DNA from: Deltaproteobacteria bacterium ADurb.Bin207 | Lineage (GTDB): Bacteria > Myxococcota_A > Polyangia > Polyangiales > Polyangiaceae | DNA length: 64,000 nt | Direction: 5' to 3' | Assembly (NCBI GenBank): GCA_002070115.1 | Contig: MWCO01000008.1 | Span: forward strand, 1 to 64,000 | Part shown: positions 37,441 to 61,770 of the stretch, in pieces | Position numbering within the stretch: position 1 is the first letter of the stretch | Layout: every line of letters begins with the position of its first letter | Translations under genes and position numbers: made by a program | The notes under the pieces: generated by a model | What the model was told of the DNA's origin: nothing | What the model saw: only the letters and a program-made list of their open reading frames with translations | Databases searched by the model: none

Positions 37441-37568
37441 GCTCTTTTCGAGCACCTCCCCAATGAATGCTACCTGTCCAGGCTTGGAGGCTCAACCAAC
37501 ATATCCCAAACACGAGCAGCTTTCTGACTTTGCGATGCTACAAACCCCAGCTACGCTCTTGTCTCACA

Positions 37569-38300: not shown

Positions 38301-39020
38301 ATGAATATCCTCATGCGCGTCTTTCGATCACGATCCTTTGCATTCCTTCTGTCGATGCCATGTTTCGTCGGCCTATTGACGGAACCACGCATGGCTAGGG
38401 CCGAACAAGAGCAGCACGAAGATCCCGTCGTGCTCAGACCTGCCCCGGATTCCCTCACCAACCACATCGCCATTTCACCCAAAATTGCCTTTATCGTGCC
38501 CACGGGAAGTGCCGAAAAACGCTTTCCACAAAGAGCTTACGTCCAAGCTGGACCATCGTACGGACTGGATCTCGCTTATGGGCTAAGCCGCTATGTCGCG
38601 TTACAGGCACGATTCGAATACGGCATGCTGTCGGCCAATGATCAATGTCCCAACGGCGGAACCTGCGAGGCAACGACCCTCGCCTTCGGCGCTGGCGTCG
38701 ATTACCACCTGGTTCATGGTGCCGCGTTCGACCCGTGGCTGCGCGCAGGAATGGGTTACCGATGGACACGATTCGATCTGCGCTGGGAGGGAATCAACCG
38801 CGATCGAGCTTACGCTGGGCTTGATTGGCTCCACCTCGCCATCGGAGGTGATTGGTATCCCCATCCCATGATCGGTTTAGGCCCCTTTTTCGCGCTCGAT
38901 ATCGGCTCCTATCAGGCGCGTCCCGACTCACCCCCCCCTGGAACCTCAGGACCAGCGCAGGCAACCGTCCATACCTTCGTTTCCCTCGGACTTCGGGCCG
39001 TTTTCGATCCGATGCGCTGA
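38301..39020 (+). CDS. Predicted outer-membrane beta-barrel protein
   Basis: A 239-residue protein with signal region MNILMRVFRSRSFAFLLSMP ending near RMARAEQ. Strand-like segments follow: ISPKIAFIVPTGSAEKRFPQ, AGPSYGLDLAYGLSRYVALQ, ARFEYGMLSANDQC, FDPWLRAGMGYRWTRFDLRW and GLGPFFALDIGSYQA. The plan matches a small outer-membrane barrel. One Cys pair (DQCPNGGTCEATTL) may form a loop disulfide. Probably co-transcribed with the preceding barrel. Small barrels also partner the TPR lipoproteins of gliding and Nfs machines, so a link to the convergent cluster is possible but unproven. Confidence 0.75.
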   Translation: MNILMRVFRSRSFAFLLSMPCFVGLLTEPRMARAEQEQHEDPVVLRPAPDSLTNHIAISPKIAFIVPTGSAEKRFPQRAYVQAGPSYGLDLAYGLSRYVALQARFEYGMLSANDQCPNGGTCEATTLAFGAGVDYHLVHGAAFDPWLRAGMGYRWTRFDLRWEGINRDRAYAGLDWLHLAIGGDWYPHPMIGLGPFFALDIGSYQARPDSPPPGTSGPAQATVHTFVSLGLRAVFDPMR

Positions 39021-39104: not shown

Positions 39105-42100
39105 TCAACCGATCGTCAAGCCAAGTGCTTTGCGCACCGCGAAGTACTCATTCGAAACCGAGAACACGATCATCTCGGTAATTTTGTCTTCCGGCGTGAG
39201 ATCTCCAGGAACCTGTGGCTCGATGGATAGGATTTTTCTGGCGATTTCAAGGTCGCCACATACGACCAGACCCGCTCGACACGCCGTAAGTTCGGTCGCC
39301 TGAAGCCACCTTTTCAGATTGATCGCTCCCTTCGTTTCCATGAAGGTGCGAACGACATGTCGAAGCCCTTCCCGATGCTGCGGCTGCATCATCGCGGCAA
39401 GCGTCTTGGCCGTCACGTCCACGTTTTGCGCCATTTCCGGTGGCACCGGAGCATCCGGAAGAACCATCCGCAGTCCCGCAAAGAATAGCTGCGTCAACTC
39501 ACTCTGCGTGGCGAAAATATTCTTGATGTAATGCTCGCCTCGGTAATTCGACAGATGTTTCGCCACGATGAAAGACAACTCATGCGGCGTGAACCCAGAC
39601 AACACGCTTTGACCCGCCACCGACGCAAACGGCATGATGGGCGCCGCGGTCAATCCTCCCTGAATATTCGTATGAACATACAGTTCCGGCGCCGTTATTC
39701 CTAACACCTTCGCCACATGGAAAAACGTCTTCGCAAAGGTGACTGTCGTGGTATGCGCCTCCTGCTTGTATCGCTTGTCAAGCACCGGTAGCTGATTCGC
39801 GGCCTTGAGCTGTTGCATCTTCGCCATCAGCGCCGCGCCGGTGAGCATCTCGAAAATGGACCCAATCAAGGTGTCTTCCGTGCGGTGAAACACGTATTTT
39901 CGCCATGATTCGTTGTCCAACCGACTGCGCACCGGCGGTATGCCCTTGGGACGATAATCTTCGTAAAACTTCTGCTGATCCTCATCGGCCAGATGCAAAA
40001 ACGAAAGGGCGCTGCACATGCACCACGCTTCGTCGAACGCCTGCTTCTGGTAATAAAGCTGGTATAGCGCACGGTAGGGCGCTTTTTGCGTCGGATCCCG
40101 ACGCAGGATTTCTTGTTGCTCCTCGACCGCAAGATCTAGCTGATTGGCTGTCTCGTATAGCTCCGCGAGAATCTGCCTTTCCGTGATGTCCTCGGGCTTG
40201 AGCCTTGAAGCCATGCGGAACGCTTCGATCGCTTCCTTGACCTCGTTGAGACGATCCCGATAAACGATCCCCAGGTTGTGCCAAAGGTTGTACTCAAGGT
40301 CTACCTTGCCCTTGCCCGCAATGCGGTGAAGCATTTTGCGGAACGACCGCTCGAGCTGTTTCCAATCCTTCTGCGACGTAAGGATTTTGTTGATGCGCTC
40401 GAACGCCTCGAGGAAATCCGGATTCAAGTCCAACGCTTCGTTGAACAGTTCCACCGCACGACCAAGATCGTTTTGATCGCGATGTAGTTGCGCCATTGTG
40501 TACAAGTAACGCGCTTTTCGCTCCGGATTGGAGTCCAAGTCCGAAATCGTTTGAATCGTATCGATCATTCGGTCGTAGTTTCGCGTCTTCTGATACAGCC
40601 CGAGAAGCTTGTGCAACAACACATGGTTGTCCGGCTTGAGTTCGAGCGCTTCCTCCAATGTCTCGATGGCTTTCGGAAGGTTGTTTTCCTTCTCCGCCCA
40701 AATGTCACCGACCTCATTGAGCATCGCGAAGCGTTCTTCTGCCTCGTATATGTTATCGAGGATCTGACGCTTGTAGGCGCAAACCTGTTTCCAATCCGAG
40801 AGCCCGGCATAAATGTCCACCATCGCCTCGAGCGTCATTCGGTGCGCATCGTCGATCGCAAGCGCCTTTTCATAGTTGTTGACCGCTTGTTTCAACTGCC
40901 CTTGCTCGCGCTTGATACAGCCGAGCTTGTAGTACACATACGCTCGATCTTCGCGGTCGCTTTCCTCCAACGACGTCAGCACCTTCTGGTAGTTGGACAA
41001 CGCGGCCGCCCAATCGCCCATCTTGAAGCTCACCTCCGCCAACCCACGAATCGTCTCTTGATCCGTCAGGTCCAAGTGGTGCGCCTCTTTGTACGCTTTC
41101 AGCGCTTTGTCATTGTTGCCCAGTTCCGCGGCAACCTTTCCTTGCATCGCATACAATTGATGCAGTTCATATCGCTCGAGTTTTCCCGCGCCCTTCTTCA
41201 ACAACATATCCGCTAGCGGATCCGCTTCAGCCCATCGGCCCACCCGAACGTATTCCTCGAGCAACGGACGTGCAGCGTCTTCATTCTCCGGATCCGCTTG
41301 AAGTGCAAGCTCGTAGGCCTGCACCGCTAAATCATGCTCTTCGAGCTGTTGCTCACGAAGGTTACCCAGTTCCACCAACAGCTTCGACCGCGCACGCGAT
41401 GACTGCGTATGCATCTGCTCTTGGTCCAGATAGCGCGCCGCCTGATCATATTCCGCCGCGTCGATCGCAATCTCCTTCAAAGCAGCCAACGTCAGAAGAT
41501 GGGCCGGATCCAAATCCAACGCCATCTCATAACGTTCTCGCGCCGCCATTCGATCGCCAAGCTGCGTGTCCAGCGCACGACCAATCCGGTAGTACATCTC
41601 CACCCGCTGCGCACCATCCGCCGTCAACTCCGCAACGCGTGTCATGTAATCAATCGCATCCGCAGCGCTTTCCTTTCTCTCATACAGCTTCGCAAGCGCT
41701 TCCAACGCTCCAATGTTCGTATCGTCCAACTCCACGATGCTTTGGTACGCATCGATCGCACGATCCACGTCCTGCACTTCGTCCGAAAACACCTGAGCCA
41801 CGTAACCGTAAAGCTCGATCTTCAAACCCCGATCCAACGTCACAGAAATATGTCGCTCGTAGGTGTTCACCAAGTCCAGCCATTGACGCAACTTCGCGTA
41901 ACACCGCTCCAAACCAACAAGCGCGGGCTCCTGGTTCGGATCGACATCCAAAACCTGCTCATAACGCGACGCCGCCTCGTCAGCCTTCAGGAACTGCTCC
42001 TCGAAGATCGCTGCTACCTTCATCAGCACCTCGATTCGCTCACGTTCCGTTGGAACGACATCGAGCTGCTGCTCGAGAACCTTGATCATCTCCGGCCAAT

Positions 42101-45100
42101 TGCCATGCGCCGCGTGAATCCTCTCCAATCCACGCATCGCAAGAAGATTGGAAGGTTCCGCATCGAGCGCCGCCTCGTAGGCCATCGTCGCCTTGTCGAG
42201 ATCACTCAACGCCGTCTCGTACAACCCCCCCATTCGGACCTGTAGACTCGCTACTTCTTCATACTCATCCTGCTTCGCCACTACCTTGGCCGCTAGGATC
42301 TCCACCAAGTCACGAGTCTGATCCCGCTCCGAGTATATCCGCTCCAATGCCTCCAACGCCGGCAAATGATGAGGATCCACTTCAAGGGCGTTTTTGTAAA
42401 ACACCATGCCCTTCTCTGTCTCACCAAGCTGCTTTTCCAACAACTCGCCAAGCTCAGTCTGTATCTCCTTCCTATCCTTCTCCGACGTCGCATGCTTCAA
42501 CGCTTCCGTCAGCGTCCGACCCAACTCCTGCCATTGCTGATTTTTGCGGTACAAATTACCCATCTGCCGCAGCACCGCCACGTTGGTCGGATCAAGCTGC
42601 ATCACCTTCTGGAAATAAGGCTGCGCATATTGCGCATGCCCCAAATCCTCGCCGTACCACTTCGCCAAACGGAGACATAGCTGAATCACTTTTCCCTGAT
42701 CCTGCTTCTCTTGCTCCGCCTGAAGCCACGTGTTCGCCGTCTGGATCAACTCACTCCAGCGATTCGTCGCCTGCGCCATGCGCTCGAGATACCGAGACGT
42801 CTCATCGTCCCCGTAATCGTCCTCAAATGCTTGCAACAATGCTTCGAAAGCCTGGTTCTTATCATCGACATGCTCCTCGAATACACCGGCAATCTTCCGA
42901 AGAAGCTCCGTGCGCTCCGAGGCCTCTTGCCGCGTCTCCAAACGAGACAAGTACAGCTCAATCAACGGCTCCCAACGCTCCGCCGCCGTATGCAGTTGCT
43001 CCAATGCCAGAAACGCATCATCGTGCGTCGGATCGATTCCCAAGATCCGCTCGAACGCAAGCGTACCCGAATCCCGATCGCCAAGCTGCTCTTCCCAAAT
43101 CCGCGTGACTTCCAATAGCTCACGGATCTGCTCCGCAGGCTCCGGCAATGCCTCCGCCCGCCGCATCTTCACGTCGATGACGTCCGTGTACCGCTCGTCC
43201 TGCCGATAGATGGCCTCCAAAGCGTCGAGCGCCTCAAAATCACCCGGATCTACCTCGAGCAATCGCGTCCATGCCTCCGCCGCATCGTACGGTTGCTCCA
43301 ATACCGTCCCGTACGTGATGCCCAACTCACGGAATATGGACTTCAGCTCCGGTGCCTCCAGATAATCCGACGCCCGATCCACCAAGTTGTGCAACGCCTG
43401 CACAAGCTCATAGGCTTCCTGACGCGTTCGCCAAATATTCGCTATCGCTCGCAACGCATCGACGTTTGCGTAATCGATCTCCAAAACCCGCTGGTAATCG
43501 TCTATCGCCTCCTCATCGCGATTGAGACGAACCAAAAATACATACGCACGACGAAGTCGAATTCGAACACGCTCCTCGTCCGTATCCGCAATGTCGTGTT
43601 GACGCTCCAAAACGTCACACAACTCGGCCCACTGACCTCGACTCTCATACAGATTCGCAAGCGCCCCAAGCGCTTCCACATCCTCCCCTCGGAGATCCAA
43701 TACCCGCTTCCATGTCGCTATCGACGCTTCCACGTCTCCAAGACGCTCCGACGCCAGTCGCGCCATCTTCGCACGAATGTCAGCCTCCTCCATGTCCCCC
43801 ATCGCATTGTCTAGCTGACGCTCATACACCACATTCAAGTCCGTCCACGCTTGCTTGTACTCGTACAAACGCTCGAGGGCCGCGATCGCTTCCTCGTTCG
43901 ATGGATCTAGTTCGTCGAATATCCGACGATATACCCGAATGGCGTCATCGTATCGTTGAAGCTTCTCTTCGTAGACAGCACCTAAGCGTCCGTGAAGCTC
44001 CACCCAATCCACCGGCTCATCAGAGGGACGAAGACGCTGCTCCAATACCTGAGCCAACTCCGCCCATTGCTCCATGGCCTCAAAAATCCGATCCAAATTC
44101 ACCAACGCATCGGAATCCGTCGGATCGACACCCAGCACATAACGATACGTCTCAATCGCGTTGTCTATCTGCTGAAGCTCTTCTTCAAACACTCTCGCAT
44201 GACGCTTTCCAATGGCTTTGCGAACCACCGGGTCCTGCTGAATATCCAGCACGTCCGCATACGCATTGCCAAGACGATCCCACCCGCCGTCCGTATCAGC
44301 CGCCAAGCGCTCTATCTCTTCGCCAATTCTTTCATCCAAAGGAAACTCACGGATCGCACGAATATACGCCTCCATCGCGCGAACCGGATCCAAAAGGTTG
44401 TGCTCATAATCCTCAGCTATCCGGTAGTACATCGCCAACCGCTCATCCGAATCCGTCAGATGTGCGAGCTGCGCCTCATGCACACCCGCCAGCTTCTCCC
44501 ATTGCGCGTTGTCCGTGTACAACGGCTCGAGAACCTCGGCGATCTCCGCCTGCTTGACCCCATTCGCAAATAGCGTTTCCAACGCCTCGAGCGCGGCTTC
44601 GTGCTCCGGCATCGACACAATCACATCCCGGTACGACGCCACCGCCTGATCGATGTCGTTCAAACGAAGCTGATAAACCTGTCCTAACCGGTACCGATAA
44701 TCGAGAACACGATCGGGGTCAGACGTAACCTCCGCCTCCCGAACCAATACCTGCGCCAAATCCCCCCACTGCTCCGTCAGCTCGAACAACCGATCCAACG
44801 AACTGAGCGCTTGCTCGTTCTCCGGAGCTACACCCAACACCTTGCGGTACCGAACCACCGCGTTCGTCAAATCCTCGAGTTGTGTCTCGTAGATCGCAGC
44901 CGTGCGTAACCCCAAGTCCACAAACCAATCCGGATTGTCTTCCAGACGATCCAACTCCCGATCGTACAACGCCGCGGCTTGACCCCAACGATCCGTAAGG
45001 GCCGCCAAACGCTCCAACGCTCCAAGTGTGTCGTGATTCGTATTGTCCAACGACAACGCTCGCGCATACGTGTCGAAAGCCGACGGATGGTCCTGAAGGT

Positions 45101-48100
45101 TGTCTTCATACAACGCCGCTATCCGGTGCAACAACTCAACCTGCAAGTAGGCATCGTCCTGGAATCGTACCTGCACTTCCAACACACTAATCAGCTTCGC
45201 CCACTGCCCCGCCCCATCATAAAACGGCTCCAATACACTGGCCGCCGCCAACGGCTCCCCATCGCCTTGCTTGAGGTTTTCCAAAGCCTGTAACGTCGGA
45301 TCATGATCCGATTGCTGCATCAAGATGTCACGGTACAACTCGATCGCACGAGGCACGTCCTGCAAGTGCTTCTCGTACAACTCCGCGATTCGATACTGAT
45401 ACGAAATCGCCTCCGCAGCATCCATCGTAAGCTCCGACTCATGCTGCAATACCGTCAATAGCTCCGCCCATTCCCCCGACGCCTGATACAATACGTCCAA
45501 CCGTCCAAGAGCTTGTAAGTCGTCCGGATCCAACTCCAACACCCGTTGGTACGTGTCGATCGCTCGCGATACATCCCCAATCTCGCGCTCGTACACAGCG
45601 CCCATCTGATAGTAAATCAGCTTCTTTTCCTCGGGATCAAACACCAAATCCACCTTCTTGGTGTACGCGCCAAGAAGATCCTCCCAACGCTTCAACCCCA
45701 AGTACTGACCGATCAATGCATCCACGGCCTGCACATCATCCGGATCCGCTTCCAGCGCCAACAAATATACCTTGATGGCTTCCTCCGGACGATTGAGCAT
45801 CTCCTCCTCGATCGCCGCTGCCTGGAACAACGCCGTTTTCTTCTCCATCGGATCGTCGACGATCTCAGCCTTCGTCTGAAGAACAGCAGACAAATCCGCG
45901 TATCGCTCAACCCCACGGAACAACCCTTCGAGCGCTTCCGCCGCCGATAGACTCGTCGGATCGATACTCAACACCTTCCGATAATGCTTCACCGCATTAT
46001 CCACATCCCCCAAATCCTGCTCATATACCTTGGCGGCCATCGAAAATAGCTGGCTCGCCAAAAAACCATCCTGCTGCGCCTGGGCTAGCCGCTCAAACAC
46101 ATGCGCAAGATCCGAAAACCTCGAGGTCGCCCGAGCAAGACGATCCAACGCCTCCTGCGTCGCTTCGTGTGCTGGATCCTCGGCCAATGCCCGTGCCAAT
46201 GTATCGAAAGCGGCCGACAAATCCCCCGCCGCATCCTCGTACAAGGAAGCTATCTGATGCAATAACTCGACTCGCCGAACCGGATCATCGGTGCGACGCA
46301 CCTGAACCTCATGCACCCCGATTAACTTCGCATAATCGCCCGTCTGCCGATACAGCGGCTCCAAAATCTCCGCAATCATCAACTCGAAGTCCGCGTTGGA
46401 GCCCAATCGCTCGAGCGCTTGCAGAGCAGATTCGTTGCCCATGTCGCGGGTCAATACCTGATGGTAAATGTCCACCGCCTGCTCGATCTGCCCCATCTTC
46501 GACTCGCGCAACGCTCCAAGACGAAGCATCAACGCCAATTCGTCTTCGTCGGTGACCGCAAGCCGTAACTGGGACTCGAGGTTGTCGGCTAACTCAAACC
46601 ACATCTCCTGACGCGAATACAACGCGTCCAATGCCTCCAACGCCACTTGACTCGTCTCATCCAGCGCAAGCACCTCTTGATAGGCCGCAATCGCGTCCGA
46701 AGGACGACCCAAACGAGTTTCGTAGACCTGCGCCATCTGCGCGTACATCTTCTCCCGATCCGCAATGTCCTCCATCAACTCGATGCGCTTGCGGTACACA
46801 CCAATCAAATCCTCCCAGCGCTCCGTGCGCCCATACAACGCCTCCAACGCCTCCAACGCTTCCTGATCCGCAGGATCCAAGGAAAGCACATGCCCATAAC
46901 CCGCCGCCGCAGCGTCTACCTTGTCCAGACGCTCCTCTATCCTCGCCAGACGAAGCCAATACGACCGCGCCAACTCCACGTCCGTCAAACTCGTCGCGAT
47001 CTCCGAAATGATCTCCTCCAACTTCGTCCACTGCTCCGATTCCTGCGCCAATGCCTCCAATTCATCACGCGCCTCGGTGTTCGACGGATCCTCCTTCAAC
47101 GCTCTTGCTTGCGCAGAAAATGCTCGCGCCAAATCCCCAAGCTGCCCTGAAGCCGTCCGCGAAATACGACGCAAAATATCAACTCTCGTCGCCACGTCGT
47201 CCTGCGTCGACGCCAGCACTTCCAACACCCCTAGCAGCTTCTCCCAATCCTCACGCACTTCATAAATCGGATCGAGAATCTGTGCCGCCTCGGCTGCCAA
47301 CTGCTCGTTCGACAGCATCGCCTCCAACGCTCCCCGCGCACCGTCGTGATGTTGGTCGACAAACAAAATCTCACGGTAGTTGTTCAACGCCCCCATCGGG
47401 TCCGATAGATGCGCCTCGAGCGTCGATCCAAGCCTGAACTTCAGATCGATCAACTCCTCTTCCGTGACGTCCAATTCAATGAGCCTTTGCAACACGTCCG
47501 CGTAACTCGCGAAATCCCCCTGCCCACGATACAACCCATCCAACGCACGCAAGGCCCGCATGTCCGTCGGATCCTCTTCCAACACCGCTACGTACGTCTC
47601 TATCGCACGCTCCGGTTGCCCCATCTCCGTCTCGTACAACCCAGCTATCGAGTACAATACTTGACGCCTCTCGTCGAAATCGGCCGTCAACTCACGCTTC
47701 TTCTCGTAGATCCCCAGAAGCTCGTCGTACCTCGATGTCTGACGATACAAACTCTCGAGCGCCGCGATCGCCTCAGGATTCTCGCTGTCCGCCTCGTACA
47801 CCGATCGAAACTCCGTCAACGCGTCGTCGACATTGTTCACTTCGTCGACAAGAACTCGACCAAGCTTCAAATGAAGCGAGATCGCGAGTTCCTGCTCCCC
47901 ATCGCCCTGCGCCACTTCAATGGCACGACGATACGATGCGATGACGCTGTCCCACTTTCCTATCGCCTTCGCCAAACGTTCTACATCATCACGACACGTC
48001 TCATCCCCAGGCGATATCTCGAACGCCGAAAGATAGCGCTCGAAGGCACGTTCCGGGTCCCGTACCTTCCCTTCGTAAAGCTGAGCTACCTCACGAAGAA

Positions 48101-50498: not shown

Positions 50499-50579
50499 GT
50501 ATCCCTCGGTCGGTTCGGGAAGATAATTACGGCGGTTAGCCACACCTACGGGGCGAGCTATTCAGCTCGAATTCTCCCT

Positions 50580-51488
50580 TTACGGTCCCTCGAGCTTGAC
50601 AAGCAAAGCGATCGCTTGCTCGCATTGCTCCCTGTATTTTTGCGCTGATCCACCTTTACACGCCTGCGCTTGGAATTTCTTGAGCATCTGAATCGCTTGC
50701 GACTTCTTCGGCGGGTTCAGCACCGCATAAGTGCTGCCAAGGTTGAACAGAATCTCAGGATTGTCCTTGCCGCCCAACTCATTGGCCGTTTCCAACGCTT
50801 TTACCATGCTTGGCATGTCATTCTGAAACTGCGCCACGCTCGCAAGCAAGACATACATGTTGAACTTCGCCTTGCTTTCATCCGCCGCAAACTTAACCCC
50901 CTGCTCAAGAACTCCCTTCGCTTGATCGAAGTAGTCCAAACGAATGTATAGGTCCGCTAGCGGCGCGTAAAACGATCCCTCGTTGGGCGCATGCTGAATC
51001 GCTTTGGTATAGTTTTCCAAAGCCCCCTGCTCGTTGTCCAAAAACAGCTCCACCAACGCTAACTCGAAGTAACAATGCGCAAATCGAGTATCCGCCTCGA
51101 TGCACTTGACCAAGGGCTCTTTCGCCTCTTCCCACGCACTGCGCTGCTTGGACTTCGAAGCCACCTGCACCAGCGCGTAACCTCGCTCATAGTGATAGTT
51201 GGCATACTGCGGTGCAGCTTGCGTCGCTCGGGCAAGCGTAGAGGCAACCTTCTCCCACTCCTCCTTCTTCCGATACGTCGTCGCTAGCATGTAAATGATC
51301 TCATGGTTGCTCGGGTCCAACTGCGTCGCCGCCTCGTATTTGTCGATCGCAGCGTCATAGGCGCCCTGTTTTTTCAACAGCGTGCCCTCGTTGGCCAGGT
51401 TGACGGCTTCGATCTTCTCGCGACCGCACCCCGAAAGAGCCACAACGAAACCAAAGAACATCATCACGCACAACGTGCTGAGCTTCAT
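50580..51488 (-). CDS. TPR lipoprotein of the gliding-type cluster
   Basis: A 302-residue protein from ATG 51488 (MKLSTLCVMMFFGFVVALSGC; acylated Cys21 followed by Gly). The longer frame to 51500 adds four residues. Six or so TPRs follow (LANEGTLLKKQGAYDAAIDK; IIYMLATTYRKKEEWEKVAS; LALVELFLDNEQGALENYTK; APLADLYIRLDYFDQAKGVL). Gly after the Cys favours transport to the outer membrane, with TPRs facing the periplasm. It lies between the GltG-like gene and the giant TPR gene, 81 bp from the latter. At this place M. xanthus has other glt genes, and no firm ortholog is claimed. Confidence 0.85.
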   Translation of the reverse strand: MKLSTLCVMMFFGFVVALSGCGREKIEAVNLANEGTLLKKQGAYDAAIDKYEAATQLDPSNHEIIYMLATTYRKKEEWEKVASTLARATQAAPQYANYHYERGYALVQVASKSKQRSAWEEAKEPLVKCIEADTRFAHCYFELALVELFLDNEQGALENYTKAIQHAPNEGSFYAPLADLYIRLDYFDQAKGVLEQGVKFAADESKAKFNMYVLLASVAQFQNDMPSMVKALETANELGGKDNPEILFNLGSTYAVLNPPKKSQAIQMLKKFQAQACKGGSAQKYREQCEQAIALLVKLEGP

Positions 51489-51731
51489 CTGTTCTGCCAC
51501 CTTTCCAACGAGCAGAGTTCAACTCCAATCCAGACCGAACCAACGCCTCGAGAAGCGAAAGTACGCGGCGCGGCTACAGCCTACCAACCAGTTCTATTCG
51601 AAACAGCAATAAGAAAGCCACACGCAACCGCGCACCCCGTATCACGCACAGGGCGCGGGAAGTCTACGCGGACGCGGCATGAAAAGTCTAGGGAGATCGG
51701 GAGTGAGAAGGAACCTGGCCCCGCGCCAAGC

Positions 51732-53855
51732 TCATTGACCAGGAGAAAACATGATCGGGTAGACAACCGTCACGATGCCACCCTCCGGCTGCGGAAACGA
51801 CAAGCCATAGTAGGCTCGCGTCACACACGAAACCACTGCCGGATCCGGAAGATCCGACCCCGCGTTGCCCACGTTCGACACCGACCCGTCACGGCCAATC
51901 ACGAACCGTACCGATACACGACCCTGCAAGTTCGGGTTGTTGCGAAGACCATTTTCATAGCACAACCGGAAACGCCCATAGTTCTGACGCACGATTCGCT
52001 GAATGACCTCCGGAGGCAAACGCCCACTCACCGTCGTCGCTCCCATCCGAACTTGAGGCGGCCTCGTCCTGTGCGAACCACCAAGACGCCCGTGCCCAGA
52101 GCCAAATCCCTGCCCCGTCCCGGTTCCCGCACCATGACCTATCGTACCAATCGAACCAAGACCGATTCCTTCGCCACGACCACCACCCCCTTCGCCAATA
52201 CCCGATAGCCCCAAACCACCGGCACCAAACGCATCACCGATGGAGTCTCCCCACATATTCCCACGCGCACTGATGGGATCCGTACCCAACGAGTCGTCGC
52301 GCCCCCACGGAGCCGTAGGCGCATTCGGATCACCTCCCGCTCCCGTGTTCAAGAGCCCAATCATACCGAATTCAGCCGCCTCCCGAAGTGCCGCCGAACG
52401 CGCAATATGCGGATCCGGGTTGTCCTTCGGCCCCGCCACACCATAACGACGATTCGTGTTGCGCGAGTTCGGATCACCCATCGACCCTTCCTCACCCTTC
52501 GCCCTCGTACCCGTCCCACCTTCCTTGTTGTCCGGGTTGTCCTCCGCTACCTGATCCGTCTCCTTCTGCTCCATCTCACGCTCGGCAGAAGCATTGAGAT
52601 ATTGCTGGATCAAGTAGAGCTGATCCTTGCTCATCGCTCCTTCATCCGTCAGACCCAACGGCGGCATGAAAAACGCCATCGCCGACAGCAACCCAATATG
52701 AACCGCAAGCGACAATCCGACATATAAGGCGGTCGACCAATCACGGGACGACGAGAATATCCCGGCCGGTGCTTTGCGACCGGCGTTGACCGTCGCTACC
52801 TGAAACACCAACCCACTGCCCGGTGCCGCCCCAGGAAGCTCGAGCCGCGCCTTCGTGCCAAGAGGCAACGGAATCTGCATCGCCCCCGAATACTCCGCGC
52901 ATGGCTGAGCGCCTCCACTCTGAAGCACCTCCTCCACCTTGAGCTTGCCTTTGCCCGGTACATCCACGAACCCCTTCGCCCCAGGAAGTACGACCGCCGC
53001 CACACTGCCCCCACTCACCACAACCACCGGAACTCGCGTCGCTCCCAGTTTTTCGGCAGGAATGAAGTAGTCATTGACAAGATTCTTGCCCTGCTCTTCG
53101 CCCACATAAAAGCTTCGAGGCGGGGATAAGTGAGAGACGTGCAACACAACGTCCCCCCACATCACCATCACCTCCACCGCCGGAACGTTCACCTCTACCT
53201 CGTCCGGGTTCACGTCCGGCCCGCTCTTCGTCAACACATAGCGAACTCCCCCTTCCCCTTCCGCACCAACATCCCCTCCCCCAAACGGATCCGCCGCCGC
53301 GGCAAATGGATTCGGCGAAGCAAACGCAAACGGATCCGCACTCGCTCCTCCGAAAGGATTCGCACCCGCTCCGTCGGCAAAAGGATTCGATACCGGCGGC
53401 GCCACCGGTCGCGCGGGAGCCGGTGCAGGAGCCGGCGCAGGGGCAGCAAAAGGATCCACCGGTCCAGGCGAAGCGGCAAACGCATCGGCCGGAGGCGGAG
53501 GCGCTGCCACCACCGGCGCGGGCGGCGGCACAAACGCGGGCTCCGCTACCGCATCTTGCGCCGACTCCAACACGATCAACGTGCCACCCACCTGAATCTG
53601 ATCGCCCGGTCGTATCTTGCACTTGTTGACCTGCGCACCATTCACCACTGTCCCAGGCTCGTTTCCCAAGTCAATGAGCGTAATGTCATCCGTCGACGCT
53701 ACCTCAATCACTGCATGCATCCGCGAAGCAAGATCGTCGTCGATCCGCAAATGACTTTTCGGATCCTTGCCGACCTTGACAATGTCCTGCGTGATCGATT
53801 CACGACGCACTAGTTGGTCGCCTTGGTACAATGCGAACGTTAGAGTAACCTTCAT
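51732..53855 (-). CDS. gltG: FHA-TM-AgmX/PglI C-terminal (TonB-like) protein, GltG-like
   Basis: A 707-residue protein from ATG 53855 (GTG 53873 also in frame). The cytoplasmic N-terminal FHA domain (about 20-95: VKVGKDPKSHLRIDDDLASR; DLGNEPGTVVNG) binds phosphothreonine. A Pro/Ala-rich linker (about 108-170, PPAPVVAAPPPPADAFAASP) leads to a beta-rich region and a single membrane helix (about 374-396, ALYVGLSLAVHIGLLSAMAF). Periplasmic Glu/Gln- and Gly-rich stretches precede an AgmX/PglI C-terminal domain (about 605-707: VIQRIVRQNYGRFRLCYENG; RVSVRFVIGRDGSVSNVGNA) with a Cys pair. This is the architecture of GltG/PglI, which spans the inner membrane in the Myxococcus gliding complex and passes force to periplasmic partners. 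Confidence 0.85.
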   Translation of the reverse strand: MKVTLTFALYQGDQLVRRESITQDIVKVGKDPKSHLRIDDDLASRMHAVIEVASTDDITLIDLGNEPGTVVNGAQVNKCKIRPGDQIQVGGTLIVLESAQDAVAEPAFVPPPAPVVAAPPPPADAFAASPGPVDPFAAPAPAPAPAPARPVAPPVSNPFADGAGANPFGGASADPFAFASPNPFAAAADPFGGGDVGAEGEGGVRYVLTKSGPDVNPDEVEVNVPAVEVMVMWGDVVLHVSHLSPPRSFYVGEEQGKNLVNDYFIPAEKLGATRVPVVVVSGGSVAAVVLPGAKGFVDVPGKGKLKVEEVLQSGGAQPCAEYSGAMQIPLPLGTKARLELPGAAPGSGLVFQVATVNAGRKAPAGIFSSSRDWSTALYVGLSLAVHIGLLSAMAFFMPPLGLTDEGAMSKDQLYLIQQYLNASAEREMEQKETDQVAEDNPDNKEGGTGTRAKGEEGSMGDPNSRNTNRRYGVAGPKDNPDPHIARSAALREAAEFGMIGLLNTGAGGDPNAPTAPWGRDDSLGTDPISARGNMWGDSIGDAFGAGGLGLSGIGEGGGGRGEGIGLGSIGTIGHGAGTGTGQGFGSGHGRLGGSHRTRPPQVRMGATTVSGRLPPEVIQRIVRQNYGRFRLCYENGLRNNPNLQGRVSVRFVIGRDGSVSNVGNAGSDLPDPAVVSCVTRAYYGLSFPQPEGGIVTVVYPIMFSPGQ

Positions 53856-53943
53856 CCCTGCCTGACCTTTCACCGGACGACAACCTCAGCGCCAGCCGCC
53901 CGTAAGCTGACACCCGAAACTCCTCGTTTGCGCCTGTCGCCCG

Positions 53944-54213
53944 CTACAAGTTTTCGACTGACTTCAACATATTGTCGACGAAGGAGATGCGCGGACGAAT
54001 CAGTGTGGTTCGGACCGGCCCAGGGCGAACTCGGATGGTTGCGTCGTTCGGCCCAAATCCCCCCGCTGCGAGAGGATCATCGTCGAACTCATAACCGTAT
54101 CCGGATTCTTTACCTTCTTTCACTCCTTCCACCGAACGCTGTGCCCACGCGGCAGAAGCGATGAGAAAAACCCCCAGGCCTACAATGGCTGCCACCAACT
54201 TCGTTCGCCTCAT
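53944..54213 (-). CDS. gltF: Small secreted protein, GltF-like position
   Basis: An 89-residue protein from ATG 54213, preceded by GGAG at suitable distance (ATG 54225 lacks one). The signal peptide is MRRTKLVAAIVGLGVFLIAS ending in AWAQ. The mature part is about 65 residues with an acidic stretch (GYEFDDDPLAAGGFGPNDAT), then IRVRPGPVRTTLIRPRISFV and a helical end DNMLKSVENL. No domain was recognised. Its place between GltE-like and GltG-like genes, its size and its secretion match GltF of M. xanthus, so the symbol rests mainly on position. Confidence 0.6.
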   Translation of the reverse strand: MRRTKLVAAIVGLGVFLIASAAWAQRSVEGVKEGKESGYGYEFDDDPLAAGGFGPNDATIRVRPGPVRTTLIRPRISFVDNMLKSVENL

Positions 54214-54402
54214 CGTTGACTCCATAGGATTTGATCGTTTTTTGTTCCAATAAAAGTGTAATCAGGTTCGAGCCTTACGGTCAATGATCAATCTTGAGGT
54301 GCGCTCGAATCGGTGGACCATGAGACCACCGACAACCCGCCCGAACACAAGTTCCCCCACGAGATAAAAATGTTCGGTCGGTTCGACCAAATAGTCTTTG
54401 GT

Positions 54403-55863
54403 TTACTTGGCACCGGCGGGCGGGGGCGGAGGAGCAGCAGGAGGAGGCGACGGCGGAGGGTTTTTCTTCGCTTCTGCTTCGGCCTTTTTGGCCTCCGCCT
54501 CGGCCTTTTGACCTTCTCGAATGAACTCAATGATTTTTTTCATGTCTTCTTTTCGTTCATTCGCGTTTTTTACGGCCGCTGCATATTCCGGAGCCGAGCC
54601 GGCTTTCGCAATGAACGAATCGAACACCCGCGCGGCGTTCTCATAAAGGCTAATCTTTTTTTCCTCGTCAGGAGCATATTTCGCCTTGAATTCCTGAATC
54701 AGGATCGCCTCGTTGAAGTACGCCTCCGGCCGCGACGCATCAATCTGCTTGGCTCGCTGCAACTCCGCATCCGCTTCCGCCATCTTGGCGTCCAAGTTGC
54801 TGTCGTTGATTTGACCACGAATCGCCAGCGAGAGCCCCAACCGCCCTTCATAGTTGTTCGGCTGCATCTTCAACGCCGCACGATACGCTTCTTCCGCCTT
54901 GTCAAACCCACGGAACGACAAGTTGACCGCCGCATAGTTCATCTGCGCTTCAAAAAAGTTCGGGTCCAACGTCCGCGCCGTGTTGAATGCCTGCACCGCG
55001 TTGTTGATATTGCGCTGCTCGACTTGAATCAGACCTAATGTATTGTAAATAGGCCCGTATTTTGAGTTTTTCCGAATGGCCTGAGAACAGACGAGCGCAG
55101 CCAAATCAAGCATCTGGCCGCTCAGTTCCGCCTTCTCCGCATCCGCCGCCATCAATCGTCGACGCTTGCTGCCAGTTTCCCGCTGAGCACGAGCACGCGC
55201 CTGGTTCATGTAATACAAGGCGAGCTGATTGAACGCCGGCATGTAGCTGTCATCGATCGCCAGCGCTCGCTGCACGTTGAGTTTCGCGCAGTCCATATCG
55301 TCTTTGCAGCCCGATGCCCCCGTCGGTCCGTTTCGCTTCATTTGAAGCATCGCAAGGTTCACCAAAGCATCGACGTTTTGAAACTTGGCTTCCACCACGG
55401 CATCCGTGAGTTTCGAAATGGTCGGATCCAAAACCGAATCGCCCTTTTCCCGATACTCGTATAGGGCGAGCTGCACTTTGGCCCGGTGGAACGCGGAATT
55501 CGCGGATAATGCGGCTTGAAACTGCGCCTTCGCTTCGTCATGTTTCGCGCAGCGTTGGTACGCTAGGCCCGCATTGTACGATGCCTCCGGCAACCCTTTG
55601 CCCGTAGCATCTTTCTGCTCCTTGACCGCGTCCAAAAACTGCTGCGCCACACTCGTACACGAGGCGTCGCTCCAATCCGCTTTTTCATCTCGACGAACCA
55701 TCTCATTGAGCGCTTCGTCGAATTTTTTTGCCGCTACCTGCACAACAGGGCCGTGCATCCCTTGCGGCCCCGAAGGCGTTTGGGCGGGAGTCGTGCTTTT
55801 GCCACCACAAGCCGCTGCGAACGCGATGACCGCAGCAAGCCCGATCAGTCTATGCGTTTTCAT
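54403..55863 (-). CDS. gltE: TPR lipoprotein, GltE/AglT-like
   Basis: A 486-residue protein from ATG 55863 (GGAGGAG ribosome site; the frame to 55896 overlaps the previous gene's end). The lipoprotein signal is MKTHRLIGLAAVIAFAAAC, followed by Gly-Gly, favouring the outer membrane. TPRs span about 80-400 (YNAGLAYQRCAKHDEAKAQF; AFNQLALYYMNQARARAQRE; YNTLGLIQVEQRNINNAVQA; MNYAAVNLSFRGFDKAEEAY). The C-terminus is a charged helix (AEAKKAEAEAKK) with a Pro-rich end (PPPSPPPAAPPPPPAGAK). Size, lipidation and order after the GltD-like gene match AglT/GltE of M. xanthus, an outer-membrane TPR part of the gliding complex. It starts 29 bp after the GltD-like stop. Confidence 0.78.
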   Translation of the reverse strand: MKTHRLIGLAAVIAFAAACGGKSTTPAQTPSGPQGMHGPVVQVAAKKFDEALNEMVRRDEKADWSDASCTSVAQQFLDAVKEQKDATGKGLPEASYNAGLAYQRCAKHDEAKAQFQAALSANSAFHRAKVQLALYEYREKGDSVLDPTISKLTDAVVEAKFQNVDALVNLAMLQMKRNGPTGASGCKDDMDCAKLNVQRALAIDDSYMPAFNQLALYYMNQARARAQRETGSKRRRLMAADAEKAELSGQMLDLAALVCSQAIRKNSKYGPIYNTLGLIQVEQRNINNAVQAFNTARTLDPNFFEAQMNYAAVNLSFRGFDKAEEAYRAALKMQPNNYEGRLGLSLAIRGQINDSNLDAKMAEADAELQRAKQIDASRPEAYFNEAILIQEFKAKYAPDEEKKISLYENAARVFDSFIAKAGSAPEYAAAVKNANERKEDMKKIIEFIREGQKAEAEAKKAEAEAKKNPPPSPPPAAPPPPPAGAK

Positions 55864-55892
55864 CGGTGCTCTCCTCCGTTGGGCGTTCGCGA

Positions 55893-58800
55893 TCACTTCT
55901 TTGCCTCTTCTTCCTTCGTTGCCGCTGGCATGACCACATACGGCTCACCGCCAAGCTGCAACGGATAAGGCTTATCATTCAATCCGGAACCCACGAGGTC
56001 CGGACTCCCGCGAAACTCGTCCACCTTGTGGAATTCCGCCTTGTAGTTCTCCGCCAACCACTCCTCACAGGACCGAGAATAACGGTCGAAGTATTGGTGC
56101 TTGACCGATAGCCCTAGGCACGTCGTAAACGCCCCCTTCGCACGCTGTTTGATAGGCTCGCTCGCCGCATCGAGACTCTGATAGTACACGCCCCGCAACT
56201 CATCGTCGCTCTTCATCCACGCGGGAATCGGCGCACGACGGAAGTCCGCGACGAACTCGGCCCACATCGTTCCGACTGCAGCACCCGCGGCGATGACCCA
56301 CTGGGGAGGTGGCGTAGGCTGAAGAGTAAGGATTTTTTGATACTCTTGGTCCGCAGCCTCGATGGCCGCCTTCTTCTTGTCGACCCAGTCCTTGACCTTA
56401 GTATCGATATGCTTCTTGACGTTTTCAGATTCCTTCTTGCGCTTCGCCATCTCCTCTTCGAACTCCCACGAGTCCATGAGTTCAGGCTTCTTGGTAGAGG
56501 GCTTGTAGGCACCGCTCGAGTACTCAGGGAACTTGATCGGGTCCACCGTCTTGCGACGTTTCTCCTCCGCAAAGAAGAAGTACGCTTCACCGACGGCTGT
56601 CAGGGCTTTGCCAAGGCGACGAGTTCGTCCCGCCTCGGGTTCGTCTTTCGCATCGTTGAGGACCGAATCGGCCGCCTGTTTGGGGTTTGCCCATAGGTCC
56701 ATGACTTTTTTGTATTCCGGAGCGGCACTGGCCTCACGTTTCATCTGCACATAGATGTTGCCAAGCATCGCGTGCGCTTGCACACGCACGTCGTAGGCGG
56801 CGTGCTTGTCGATGAGGGCGATGTTTTTGGTGAGTTGCCCCCGGGCATCCTCCCACTTTTTCTGTTCCACGTAGTAATTGGCGATCGCGAACGCTATCTG
56901 TGCGTTTTGAACCGGTTTTCTTGCGCCGAAGTACTGCTGGAACAGCTTCGCGTTCTCGAGGGCTTTGGTGTCATGTCCAAGTCCCAAGCGAAGCACGACC
57001 GAGTCGGACAAGGCGGCGTCGGCCTTTTCATTCCAAAAATCGAGTGATTCTTTCGCGGTCGGCTTCGGCTTTTCTCGCGCGAACTTCTCGTACCAATCCG
57101 CAGCTTTGTCATAGACCGCGATGGCCTGGTAGTTGCCTCCGATTTCATACACGGCCTTCCGAGCCAACGGGCTTTCCGTCATCTTGTTGTCAGGATTGAG
57201 CAGGATCTGACGGCACTGAATCGCTTTGGCAATCAATCGACCTGCTTGGAACGCCCTGCAAGCGTTGTACACCACCTCATCGAGCCGCTCGCATTGCATT
57301 TCCTTGTTTGATTTGACCGCTTCTTCGCCGTACTTGCGCCACAGGCCAAGATAAGCGTTGGCAGCCGCTTCGTATTGACGAAGCGAACCGGCGCCACCCT
57401 TGTCCGCGAGCTTGACCATGTTCTCAGCCTTGAGACGTTCGATGTCGCATTGAATGCGGGTGAGTACTGTGCATTGATCCTCATTGGCGGCCGCTCGCGC
57501 ACCCGTGCAATACAGCCCAATGAGTTTGGGAACATCCTCACCCATCTTGTCGAAGCAATCAGGACGCGGCGGGTCGACTTTGTCGCCCAACACGTTGATG
57601 GATTCGAGATAAAGCTGGGCCGCGAAAATGCCAGCCTCGTGGTCCGCGTGGTTCATCGCCACGTCTCGGAACGCAAGAGCCGCCTCCTCCCAATGCTGCG
57701 CTTCGAAGTAAGTCCGCGCGCGCGCGTATTTGACCTCGACGTATTGATTCTTGCCTTCCTTGTCGGAATCCGCGGGCTTGATGTAGCAAACGTAGCGGTT
57801 GAAAGCCGTAATCATGCCCTTCTGCCGCTCGGAGAACTCCTTCTTCTTGTACTTATCCGCATCAGAGGCTTTCTCTTCCTTCTTGGCACCAGGCATCAGA
57901 CCGCTGCCCTTGCGATCCTTGCCCCCCTTATGCTCTTCGTCGTAGATGTTTTGGTAGCAAAGCACCGCGGCGAACGCTGCTTCCGGAGCTTCCGCGCTCG
58001 TTGGATTTTCCGCTACGACAGCGTCGAAAGCGGGGCCACATTGATCCCATTTCTTCTGGGCGTAGAGCAAGTCCGCCCGGTGATATTTGATTTTGTAAAT
58101 CGTCGGCCAATCCTCTTTTGCGATGCGCGGGAATTCGAACTTCGCAAAGTCTTGCGCCGTGAAGTTTTCAACGACTTGCCCGTAGAGATAATCGGCGAGA
58201 GCCATGGTCTTGGGATCGTTGGTTCCTCGAACCCCTCCCGAGCCGACCGCCTCGAGATGCCACGCCATCGCCGTCTCACTCAGAAGCCCAGCCGTGGCAT
58301 TGGCACACTTGAGTTGCGTGTCCCCCGTGCGCCCCTTGGACTTGAACTCTTTGTATACGCCCACCTGACCGTCGAGCACCTTTTTGATCTGGTCCTTGTT
58401 TCCAGACTTCATCGCCAGCGTGGCCTCAGCGATGCGCGCGTGATACTGGCAATATCGCGGCCCCCGATCACGCTTCATCAAATCCTGATACAAGGCGATC
58501 GCCTCGGCATAATAGCCAGTGTCCAGATAGTTCTGCCCAAGCTGGTCCATCATATCGAAGGTCTTGCTTTCCTCATTCGGTTTGTCGCCCGACAACCCCT
58601 TGAAGAAGCCATACGCCGCCTCCGGCCGACCGGATAACGCGTACACGGGAACCAAGTCTTTTCGGGCTGCCACCGCCAACGGACCAGCGTTCGGCAGGTT
58701 GGGGTACTGCTCGGCAAACTCGATCGTCTTTTTGAAGTGCGTCAACGAACGCGGAAAATCTTCCTGGTTCCAGTTGACATAGGCGAGCTTGTAATGGGCG

Positions 58801-59648
58801 TAGCCGAACATTTTGTTGTCCGGCGGCGGATACTTGATGACCTCGGTATACGCCTGTTTGGCTAGCTCGAATTTGGAAGCGTCGGACTGAGCCTCCCCAA
58901 AGAACAATTCGCCGAACGCCAGGTACGCGCTCGGGATGTACTTTGAATTCGGAGTTTTTTGGATCAACTCGTAATAGACCTTGCGAGCGTTGACCAAGTC
59001 CTCGGCCTGCTCATATTCGTACGCCAAATAGTACAACACCTCGTCAAGGTTCTTATCCGATGGGTACTGCGTCTTGATGAGGTTGTAGAAGTGGATGGCC
59101 TTCTTTCTGGCAAGCAACATGACTTGATTGGCCTTCGCGGCTTCCCCGGAGTTTTTCTTGACCTCCGCTTGGGTTTTGTCGCGACGTGCCGCGTTCTCGA
59201 GTTCCACGTACGTTTCCGCGAGTCGTCTTGCAATACGGACGCGATCGGGGGCGCGACGCGGGGTGGTTTGGAACAATTGCTCGAGCCCGCTGATTTCCGT
59301 GATGAGCAGCGCCCGGACACGAGGCTTCAGCGCTTCTTGTCGTTGATCGCGAATGGCAAACGTATCCATTTCTGCTGTCGGCCCGCCCGGTTTGCTTTTG
59401 GCATCGCGTTTTTTCAGGTCGACCTGTTCAGGAGCGCTCTTGAACCGAACACGCGGCTGCTTGCCGTGGGTCCCCACGTTGAACGTGGTCGGCCCAGACC
59501 CCGGACACGAGGCTAAGTTCTTTTCAGCCTCGTTCGACCAGCAGGCCTGTCCTCCCGACTTGGGGGCGTCGGCGGCGTACACGCCTGCAGCCCATGTGAG
59601 CGCGATGGCGCTCATGCACAACGCGCGGATGTTCCGCAATGGCTTCAT
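55893..59648 (-). CDS. gltD: Large periplasmic TPR protein, GltD/AgmU-like
   Basis: A 1,251-residue protein starting at ATG 59648 with GGGAGG upstream. The signal peptide is MKPLRNIRALCMSAIALTWA ending in VYAAD. TPR-like helices run through most of the chain (VLYYLAYEYEQAEDLVNARK; YAHYKLAYVNWNQEDFPRSL; LGQNYLDTGYYAEAIALYQD; VQAHAMLGNIYVQMKREASA). A Lys-rich coiled region lies near 1085-1120 (EMAKRKKESENVKKHIDTKV). The mature protein lies in the periplasm. Its size is close to AgmU/GltD of M. xanthus (about 1,200 residues) and it heads the same gene order (D-E-F-G). It is 5 bp downstream of another TPR gene, so the unit is one operon. Confidence 0.8.
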   Translation of the reverse strand: MKPLRNIRALCMSAIALTWAAGVYAADAPKSGGQACWSNEAEKNLASCPGSGPTTFNVGTHGKQPRVRFKSAPEQVDLKKRDAKSKPGGPTAEMDTFAIRDQRQEALKPRVRALLITEISGLEQLFQTTPRRAPDRVRIARRLAETYVELENAARRDKTQAEVKKNSGEAAKANQVMLLARKKAIHFYNLIKTQYPSDKNLDEVLYYLAYEYEQAEDLVNARKVYYELIQKTPNSKYIPSAYLAFGELFFGEAQSDASKFELAKQAYTEVIKYPPPDNKMFGYAHYKLAYVNWNQEDFPRSLTHFKKTIEFAEQYPNLPNAGPLAVAARKDLVPVYALSGRPEAAYGFFKGLSGDKPNEESKTFDMMDQLGQNYLDTGYYAEAIALYQDLMKRDRGPRYCQYHARIAEATLAMKSGNKDQIKKVLDGQVGVYKEFKSKGRTGDTQLKCANATAGLLSETAMAWHLEAVGSGGVRGTNDPKTMALADYLYGQVVENFTAQDFAKFEFPRIAKEDWPTIYKIKYHRADLLYAQKKWDQCGPAFDAVVAENPTSAEAPEAAFAAVLCYQNIYDEEHKGGKDRKGSGLMPGAKKEEKASDADKYKKKEFSERQKGMITAFNRYVCYIKPADSDKEGKNQYVEVKYARARTYFEAQHWEEAALAFRDVAMNHADHEAGIFAAQLYLESINVLGDKVDPPRPDCFDKMGEDVPKLIGLYCTGARAAANEDQCTVLTRIQCDIERLKAENMVKLADKGGAGSLRQYEAAANAYLGLWRKYGEEAVKSNKEMQCERLDEVVYNACRAFQAGRLIAKAIQCRQILLNPDNKMTESPLARKAVYEIGGNYQAIAVYDKAADWYEKFAREKPKPTAKESLDFWNEKADAALSDSVVLRLGLGHDTKALENAKLFQQYFGARKPVQNAQIAFAIANYYVEQKKWEDARGQLTKNIALIDKHAAYDVRVQAHAMLGNIYVQMKREASAAPEYKKVMDLWANPKQAADSVLNDAKDEPEAGRTRRLGKALTAVGEAYFFFAEEKRRKTVDPIKFPEYSSGAYKPSTKKPELMDSWEFEEEMAKRKKESENVKKHIDTKVKDWVDKKKAAIEAADQEYQKILTLQPTPPPQWVIAAGAAVGTMWAEFVADFRRAPIPAWMKSDDELRGVYYQSLDAASEPIKQRAKGAFTTCLGLSVKHQYFDRYSRSCEEWLAENYKAEFHKVDEFRGSPDLVGSGLNDKPYPLQLGGEPYVVMPAATKEEEAKK

Positions 59649-59653
59649 GATGC

Positions 59654-61348
59654 CTACCTCCCGCAGTTCGAAATCACGACCTGCCGATAAAATCCCAGTT
59701 CGTCGCGCCAGAACTCACCGTTGAACGGCCAAAGCACGTGCTCTTCATCCGGCTTGACCACACCATAGATCTTTGATTCTTCGCGTGAAACCTGTCCGCT
59801 CTGGACGGCTTGCTCGAGTTTGTTTCGTTCGGCCGCGGTGACGTCGATCAGAATTTTGGCCGAATCACGAAGATGCTCGTTGAGTTCGTCGACAGTACGC
59901 TGGAACCGGGCCCTGGCCAGGTCACCGGCATTGCGAATCGCAAGGTCTTTCGCGAAGTCGAGCGCATCCTGCACATCGCCCCCTAGAGGCGAGTTTTTGA
60001 AAGCCGCGGGCGCTTTTTTGAATACCCGCTCTTCTTCTTCGAGCACCCGAACATACTCCAAGTTGCGCAACAACTGCCTGTCGGACAACGAGTTTTCCAC
60101 GATGGGCCGGACCTTGGCATCGAGGTCCGCCTTGCCCTCACGTACGTTTCGCAGAAAATCGAACATCTTCGCCTCTTGGTTCTCACCCTTGTAGCGAGCG
60201 AGTATTTTCTCCATTTCGGCTTTGATCGGCTCGTACTTCAACTTGAACCGAGCGACCACGGTGGTGGCCTCCTTGTATTGACAGTTCGCGAAATAAATGA
60301 CCGCTTTCAAAATATCCGATTCCGGATAGAAGGAGTTCGGGAAAAACGGTGACTGAATCGTGTGGATGTTGCCAAGAGCACGCGGATAGTCGCCCGCCAT
60401 GAAGTACGCCCACGACTGCTCGAACAAACCGTCGAGCCAGTACTCGCTCGCCACGTCGATCTTGTTCCAATATTTGACCGCTGCACTCAATTTCGTGGCA
60501 TCCACGGTGGGCGTGTTGTTGTCATCCAACCGGATCGAAGCCGTGTAATAGGTGCGGGCCATCGACAAGAACGCGAGGTCACGCATTCGCTGCTCGTCTT
60601 CCACTCCCTCCACACCATCATCAATCGCCCTCACGATGCGATTGAAGGATTTGACGGCTGGAACCGAGCGACGGAGCTGGACGTAAGAAATTCCCATAAA
60701 GAACTGGGCTTGCACGAAGTACTTGCTTCGCTTGCTTACGTTTTGGAAAAGCCGGATGGCTTCCTCGTATTGCCGGTTTCGATACTTATATCGTCCGAGC
60801 AAGTAATTGAGTTGCCAGAACAGTTCGTGCTGGTTGGGGTTATCGAAACGAGCGATGGCATCCGCCTTGTACTTGCCCACCCGTTCGATGATGTCGGCGG
60901 GCTCGGGCAACTGCGTGGCGAGTTTGGAAAGCCACAACAAAGTCTCGTTGAACTTCAGGTGGTTGGGGTTGTCCGCGATCAAGCTGAAAATGTTGTAACT
61001 CGCCTGATGCAATTTGAGCTGGTACAGCGCGATCGCGAGGTTGTATTGCGCGATCTGTCGGTTGCCCTCGTCATCATTCGTCTCGTTTTTGAACACTCGA
61101 TCGAGAGCCAAAGCCGCCTGGGCCCATTTCTCGCTATCAAATAAGCGCTTGGCTTGAGCAGCCTCCTCCGTCATCTGCCCGGCTACGACCGGGCCTGTAG
61201 GCTCACTTCCCGGATCGTCGAGTTCAATATCGACCGCCGATTCCGCGGGGGCTTTTCCCCCGCCCTTTGCGCCTTGGGCTACGGCGCTTCCGGTTGCAAA
61301 GCCCATGGTACTGACGACCAGGCAGATGCAGGCAAACCGCTTTAGCAT
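59654..61348 (-). CDS. Periplasmic TPR protein, first gene of the gliding-type operon
   Basis: A 564-residue protein with signal peptide MLKRFACICLVVSTMGFATG ending near AVAQ. TPRs cover about 60-330 (AAQAKRLFDSEKWAQAALAL; AQYNLAIALYQLKLHQASYN; FWQLNYLLGRYKYRNRQYEE; LFEQSWAYFMAGDYPRALGN). The C-terminal third is helical and charged (LDFAKDLAIRNAGDLARARF) and ends in a small conserved-looking region (GVVKPDEEHVLWPFNGEFWR). It could correspond to GltC, the other periplasmic TPR protein of the Myxococcus system, but that match is only by size and type. A sigma-70-like promoter stands about 110 bp upstream. Confidence 0.85.
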   Translation of the reverse strand: MLKRFACICLVVSTMGFATGSAVAQGAKGGGKAPAESAVDIELDDPGSEPTGPVVAGQMTEEAAQAKRLFDSEKWAQAALALDRVFKNETNDDEGNRQIAQYNLAIALYQLKLHQASYNIFSLIADNPNHLKFNETLLWLSKLATQLPEPADIIERVGKYKADAIARFDNPNQHELFWQLNYLLGRYKYRNRQYEEAIRLFQNVSKRSKYFVQAQFFMGISYVQLRRSVPAVKSFNRIVRAIDDGVEGVEDEQRMRDLAFLSMARTYYTASIRLDDNNTPTVDATKLSAAVKYWNKIDVASEYWLDGLFEQSWAYFMAGDYPRALGNIHTIQSPFFPNSFYPESDILKAVIYFANCQYKEATTVVARFKLKYEPIKAEMEKILARYKGENQEAKMFDFLRNVREGKADLDAKVRPIVENSLSDRQLLRNLEYVRVLEEEERVFKKAPAAFKNSPLGGDVQDALDFAKDLAIRNAGDLARARFQRTVDELNEHLRDSAKILIDVTAAERNKLEQAVQSGQVSREESKIYGVVKPDEEHVLWPFNGEFWRDELGFYRQVVISNCGR

Positions 61349-61770
61349 CGCTTTTCCTCGCTTTCGGCGACGTTTCTCTCTGAGTCCGTCTGGGTGTTCT
61401 TTCGGACCCCGAAAAAGGTAAAATAATCAATGATGACTTGGAGATGGCTCCCGCAAGGGGCGTCATGTTAACGATTCGTCGGAAAGGTTGTCAAGCGCCT
61501 CCTCCCCCCCCTTGTCGGCTCGATGTCGCTTCGTCGTCGTCGCGCCGTCCGTTCCGCCATTCCTTTGCGTAGAGAAACTCGCTTATCGCCAGCCGCATCC
61601 AAAACCGATATTCACCACAGCGCCAGTTCCCCGTTGACTCCGCGGGCGGCTATGATCTAGTTTGCGTTGTCACTGTTTAGGCGTACGGTGGACAATTACG
61701 GTTGCCTATCGTCGAACGTATAACTATTTCGAGCTGTTGCCCGAAATCCGTCCTCAGGGAGCCCACCACG
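61349..61770. other. Divergent intergenic region
   Basis: 422 bp separate the start of the TPR operon from the lipoprotein gene. The only clear elements are the minus-strand promoter at 61465-61494 and possible -10 hexamers for the plus strand (TATGAT near 61650, TATAAC near 61720) without a good -35 partner. No small gene or RNA was recognised. Confidence 0.5.
61465..61494 (-). promoter_or_regulatory. Promoter of the gliding-type TPR operon
   Basis: On the minus strand TTGACA (61489-61494, perfect) is followed after 18 bp by TAACAT (61465-61470, 4/6). Transcription would begin near 61458, giving a leader of about 110 nt before the ATG at 61348. It would serve the collinear genes down to the terminator at 39032-39075, although internal promoters are likely in a 22-kb unit. 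Confidence 0.5.

Follow-up and report, generated by a model that had tools for sequence, protein, structure and literature searches.

Gene content of the locus

The window, by which we mean the whole stretch of 64,000 nucleotides analysed here, belongs to contig C8, in a draft genome of 6.55 Mb. On its minus strand lies a run of seven genes, read from position 61348 to 39105 in the order gltC, gltD, gltE, gltF, gltG, X, and gltI, with a plus-strand neighbor at either end (Table 1). Signal peptides, lipoboxes, and the transmembrane (TM) segment were read from the sequence by eye. All seven same-strand open reading frames (ORFs) that a preliminary description had placed in this interval were recovered with the features it had assigned to them. 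The intergenic gaps from gltC to gltI measure 5, -4, 177, 70, 231, and 36 nt, which makes co-transcription plausible and would allow for one or more transcripts, and promoter-like sites are about as frequent in the locus as in shuffled sequence.

Table 1. Genes of the gltC-to-gltI run and its immediate neighbors (window coordinates)
Gene	Position	Strand	Product and features
Outer-membrane beta-barrel	38301..39020	+	Convergent with gltI; very tentative GltH/CglE candidate
gltI	39105..50543	-	3,812 aa; giant cytoplasmic TPR protein, no signal
X	50580..51500	-	306 aa; TPR lipoprotein, lipobox LSGC
gltG	51732..53873	-	713 aa; cytoplasmic FHA, single TM, periplasmic AgmX/PglI (TonB-like) tail
gltF/cglF	53944..54225	-	93 aa; small exported protein, signal peptide
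gltE	54403..55896	-	497 aa; TPR lipoprotein, lipobox
gltD	55893..59648	-	1,251 aa; periplasmic TPR protein, signal peptide
gltC	59654..61348	-	564 aa; soluble periplasmic TPR protein, signal peptide
Cys-rich lipoprotein	61702..62370	+	Head-to-head with gltC; positional GltK/CglC candidate

Assignment of the core genes

The first gene of the run, previously described as an extra periplasmic TPR gene, turns out to be gltC: residues 63-562 of its product match the NCBIfam model NF033756 (gliding_GltC; E 5.3e-82), and the protein is 70% identical to its Sorangium ortholog. GltG matches NF033760 over its full length (E 1.1e-85, below the equivalog cut-off), its tail matches NF033768 (1.8e-24), and its FHA domain matches PF00498 (1e-12). 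GltE, whose likely start lies 11 codons downstream of the ORF start, is hit by NF033758 (gliding_GltE; E 1.1e-17, below cut-off), while the 93-aa ORF aligns weakly with NF033764 (gliding_CglF; E 7e-4, 86 of 88 model positions, below cut-off) and keeps its position in 25 loci. The gliding-model scores of the window proteins all fall below the equivalog cut-offs, true Myxococcus sequences reaching about 1,095 bits; of 237 genomes sampled from the phylum, 188 encode GltG-type proteins, and none reaches the cut-off for GltG. A search of solved structures with GltC and GltG gave FHA domains and a designed protein as the only matches, the latter weak.

No curated NCBIfam model matches gltD. Its product was aligned with nine relatives at 22-60% identity, and the resulting ten-sequence profile retrieves M. 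xanthus GltD at 598 bits; by this profile and by position, the second gene is assigned as GltD. The giant protein shows 27% identity to Myxococcus GltI over about 3,000 aa of TPRs. In addition, its last 430 residues, the bulk of which form a non-TPR domain of about 300 residues, match the C terminus of Myxococcus GltI (E 1e-16) and of all relatives tested, and together these sequence matches confirm it as GltI. Product searches, which the preliminary description had proposed, hence place C, D, E, G, and I, and more weakly F, among Glt/Agl homologs beyond generic TPR or FHA similarity. The likeness that this description noted between the run GltD, GltE, GltF, GltG ... GltI and the Myxococcus xanthus cluster also holds, in both collinear order and homology.

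Conservation of the locus and its neighbors

Of the 18 loci read from the phylum, 14 keep the complete order gltC-D-E-F-G-X-I (the GltF of the G151 locus being recognised by HMM), as do 11 loci of named relatives, including Sorangium, Polyangium, and Minicystis. The scan of named relatives used a joined query, made of a Myxococcus protein S and the middle part of the window GltG, so that a single scan retrieves M. xanthus as well as the window's relatives. Since the window nests among these loci in the tree, we infer that the locus family is Polyangiaceae-like, and by sequence the locus type is conserved across Polyangiaceae-like and Bradymonadales-like lineages. The different part list that had been suggested is not peculiar to this host; the same list is standard throughout the host's lineage. 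The clusters of Sorangium, Polyangium, and Minicystis share with the window the seven-gene order with X and the divergent lipoprotein gene, and are 63-64% identical to it over C+D+E+G. We saw no substantial difference from these clusters, the 38301 barrel being present in only some family members.

Of 25 loci, 23 have the Cys-rich lipoprotein gene opposite gltC in head-to-head orientation. Because M. xanthus cglC/gltK, also a lipoprotein gene, is likewise divergent from gltBAC (PMC4488436), the product of the window gene is a GltK/CglC candidate by position, as yet an unproven ortholog. It shows part of the GltK/CglC cysteine pattern, and comparison with CglC gave no significant sequence match (best HMM E 1.9; hhalign P 0.006; no NCBIfam match). 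At the other end, the barrel at 38301 matches OMP_b-brl (E 0.0018) and reaches only E 0.01 with the CglE model (hhalign P 0.002). It adjoins gltI in seven other family members, Sorangium and Minicystis not being among them; a reading of this barrel as GltA was rejected on comparison. A second barrel gene (37467-38255, plus strand) lies beside it, also convergent with gltI, and was otherwise seen only in SKS1.bin3.

The lipoprotein between gltG and gltI

The TPR lipoprotein X, noted earlier as an addition between GltG and GltI, occupies this place in 25 of 25 other, fully read orthologous loci, Sorangium and Polyangium included. An alignment of 21 members shows its lipobox cysteine and a C-x-R motif to be conserved. 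The AlphaFold model is a TPR superhelix (pLDDT 90.6), for which a fold search returned generic TPR superhelices only, with PilF among the structural matches. The TPR lipoproteins Tgl, PilF, and PilW resemble X in combining a lipobox with a TPR superhelix, but X fits many TPR folds equally well or better and points to no specific family.

In M. xanthus, the place between gltG and gltI holds GltH and AgmV, the latter as an intact 623-aa frame. No specific counterpart of X was found at the M. xanthus glt and nfs loci examined, where its profile matches other TPR proteins, as expected for any TPR profile; a comparison of X with AgmV itself gave no match. Two Myxococcus strains have a single intact ORF of 623-626 aa at the agmV position, flanked by gltH and gltI (L117 5948-7819, L127 13676-15556, both minus strand), and this speaks against the 2011 classification of MXAN_4864/4865 as a pseudogene.

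Compared at the sequence level with the known Agl-Glt machinery, X is the sole new part of the locus. It is probably an outer-membrane assembly or linker lipoprotein, and by the model of Tgl and CglC it would serve in the docking or assembly of the outer-membrane module.

Partners elsewhere in the genome

The barrel family of GltA, GltB, NfsA, and NfsB (TIGR04565) has two clear members in the genome, at 68364-68951 and 69210-69776 of contig C8, and a third, weak one on contig C23. The clear members form a gltB-gltA pair 4-6 kb past the window edge, divergent from gltC, and their best BLAST matches are M. xanthus GltB (6e-23) and GltA (2e-8), above Nfs. In about a dozen relatives such a pair is likewise found near gltC, and Sorangium and Minicystis are among the genomes that carry it. 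We also observe that gltB and gltA lie immediately 3' of ftsY in the same orientation (L006 6414-9935, plus strand; C8:66414-69935).

On contig C40, two ExbB-ExbD-ExbD motors stand head-to-head (L005 6509-11903), an arrangement shared with SKS1.bin3, the nearest of the named relatives, and with Sorangium. One of them is 53%, 45%, and 32% identical to AglR, AglQ, and AglS of an M. xanthus triplet that was taken as AglRQS on the lengths of its first two proteins (245 and 162 aa, as for AglR and AglQ; PMC3169522), and the second matches another M. xanthus triplet (L217). In one relative (G155) an AglRQS-type triplet adjoins gltG, which ties the motor to GltG. Hence both the motor and the beta-barrels, for which the preliminary description had advised a genome search, were located, the former on another contig and the latter on the same contig just outside the window. 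GltJ-like proteins with GYF, TM, and tail are encoded on contigs C134 (with a Zn-ribbon) and C73, scoring 91 and 54 bits against a cut-off of 450.

Proposed function and alternatives

On the observed gene content, gene order, orthology, and genome-wide partners, we consider it likely that an Agl-Glt gliding machine of the Myxococcus type has its trans-envelope part encoded in this locus. This reading is based on the family matches of GltC, GltE, GltG, and GltF, the C-terminal domain of GltI, the GltA/B pair on the contig, the AglRQS-type motor, and the tree described below. Judged by its sequences, the locus is a Polyangium/Sorangium-type member of the known Agl-Glt family and not a new kind of system. 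In M. xanthus, motor function resides in AglRQS, which GltI and GltG connect to the cytoskeleton and the envelope, and GltA, GltB, and GltC form the outer-membrane and periplasmic end (PMC4488436, PMC13104615). By analogy we infer how force is transmitted, that it serves gliding, and what X does: the AglRQS proton channel, encoded on the other contig, would drive GltG by its periplasmic tail, with GltI scaffolding the motor in the cytoplasm as reported in M. xanthus. Across the periplasm, GltD, GltE, GltF, and GltC would then relay the force to the outer membrane with its GltA/GltB barrels and accessory lipoproteins, resulting in surface gliding. X may be an outer-membrane lipoprotein whose TPR superhelix lies in the periplasm and which docks or assembles the barrel module, much like Tgl/PilF or CglC. 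The links of this machine that are encoded in the window are GltC-G and GltI.

It is unlikely that the locus instead represents an ancestral envelope machine of other function, such as force-linked envelope maintenance or contact-dependent predation, which Myxococcus later adapted for gliding. The wide distribution of GltG-type proteins in the phylum would fit such an origin, as would the occurrence of the core complex in non-gliding bacteria (PMC3169522). However, the genome also has gltA, gltB, gltF, and gltI, which belong to the gliding-associated group A and set it apart from a bare core, and gliding has been reported in Bradymonadales (PMC7188933), an order to which the G151 genome would belong.

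Quite improbable, too, is an Nfs-like surface transport in which the motor and envelope machine moves polysaccharide or other cargo, of the spore coat type, rather than the cell. The preliminary description had left the choice between gliding and Nfs open. Nfs is a paralog of Glt that shares its motor in M. xanthus (PMC3858216), and its genes (nfsA-H) have the C-D-E-F-G order and encode paralogous proteins. Yet Nfs is devoid of GltI, GltJ, and GltK (PMC3858216), whereas gltI is always present here, and the window cluster is 23% identical to Nfs and does not group with it. In a concatenated C+D+E+G tree, the window relatives, including a Bradymonadales-like genome, group with M. xanthus Glt (93/91) apart from Nfs. 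The AU test rejects both the joining of Nfs to this clade without Glt (p 0.008) and a sister relationship of Glt and Nfs (p 0.028), moderate evidence given the long branches to the M. xanthus paralogs and the biased composition. Together with the presence of gltI and with a single clear barrel pair that is closer to Glt than to Nfs GltA/B counterparts, these results favor Glt.

That unrelated TPR and FHA proteins merely resemble Glt is scarcely conceivable: TPR and FHA domains are common, GltD is without a curated model match, and GltE and GltF match below cut-off, but chance is excluded because the gliding models match GltC, GltG, GltE, and weakly CglF/GltF and all seven genes recur in this order in 25 other loci, and the full-length matches of GltC and GltG, the GltI C-terminal domain, the seven-gene synteny, and the GltA/B linkage already refute it.

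We rate somewhat below even a joint proposal: that X is an obligatory ancestral gliding part, hitherto unrecognised, that acts in outer-membrane docking or assembly and that the Myxococcus line either lost or exchanged for GltH/AgmV, and that the Glt-Nfs duplication took place before Myxococcus diverged from its relatives in Polyangium and Bradymonadales.

Comparison with the M. xanthus gene clusters

The M. xanthus machinery is encoded in the clusters G1 (gltD-J), G2 (gltK-B-A-C), and M1 (aglRQS), and the host genome contains homologs of GltA, B, C, D, E, F, G, and I and of AglRQS. Both share the order D-E-F-G...I and a divergent gene for a Cys-containing lipoprotein by the gltC unit, with about 25% identity over C+D+E+G. 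In the host, gltC heads the D-I unit, whereas in M. xanthus it lies alongside gltBA in the separate gltK-B-A-C cluster (PMC3169522). Moreover, X stands in place of gltH and agmV, and gltJ is not downstream of gltI.

The Polyangium-type locus holds GltA-G and GltI within about 31 kb with few other genes between them, and is therefore a compact template of the machine before its scattering in Myxococcus and a good model of the ancestral machine. It distinguishes the old parts (A, B, C, D, E, F, G, I, and AglRQS) from those not recovered in this analysis, and brings out a conserved lipoprotein, X, that the Myxococcus model would have left hidden.

Further Glt-like genes

A second GltG paralog without FHA, 56% identical to the window GltG and followed downstream by an Lnb_N-domain gene, is encoded on contig C9 (L057 10057-11661, minus strand). 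Similar GltG paralogs occur in Sorangium (L123), Minicystis (L124), SKS1 (L125), and Polyangium (L126), with an Lnb_N-type neighbor in SKS1. In addition, contig C18 carries a further set of GltC/GltD/GltE-like TPR proteins of 810, 1422, and 454 aa (L058 1839-9881, minus strand), which has a counterpart in M. xanthus (L150).
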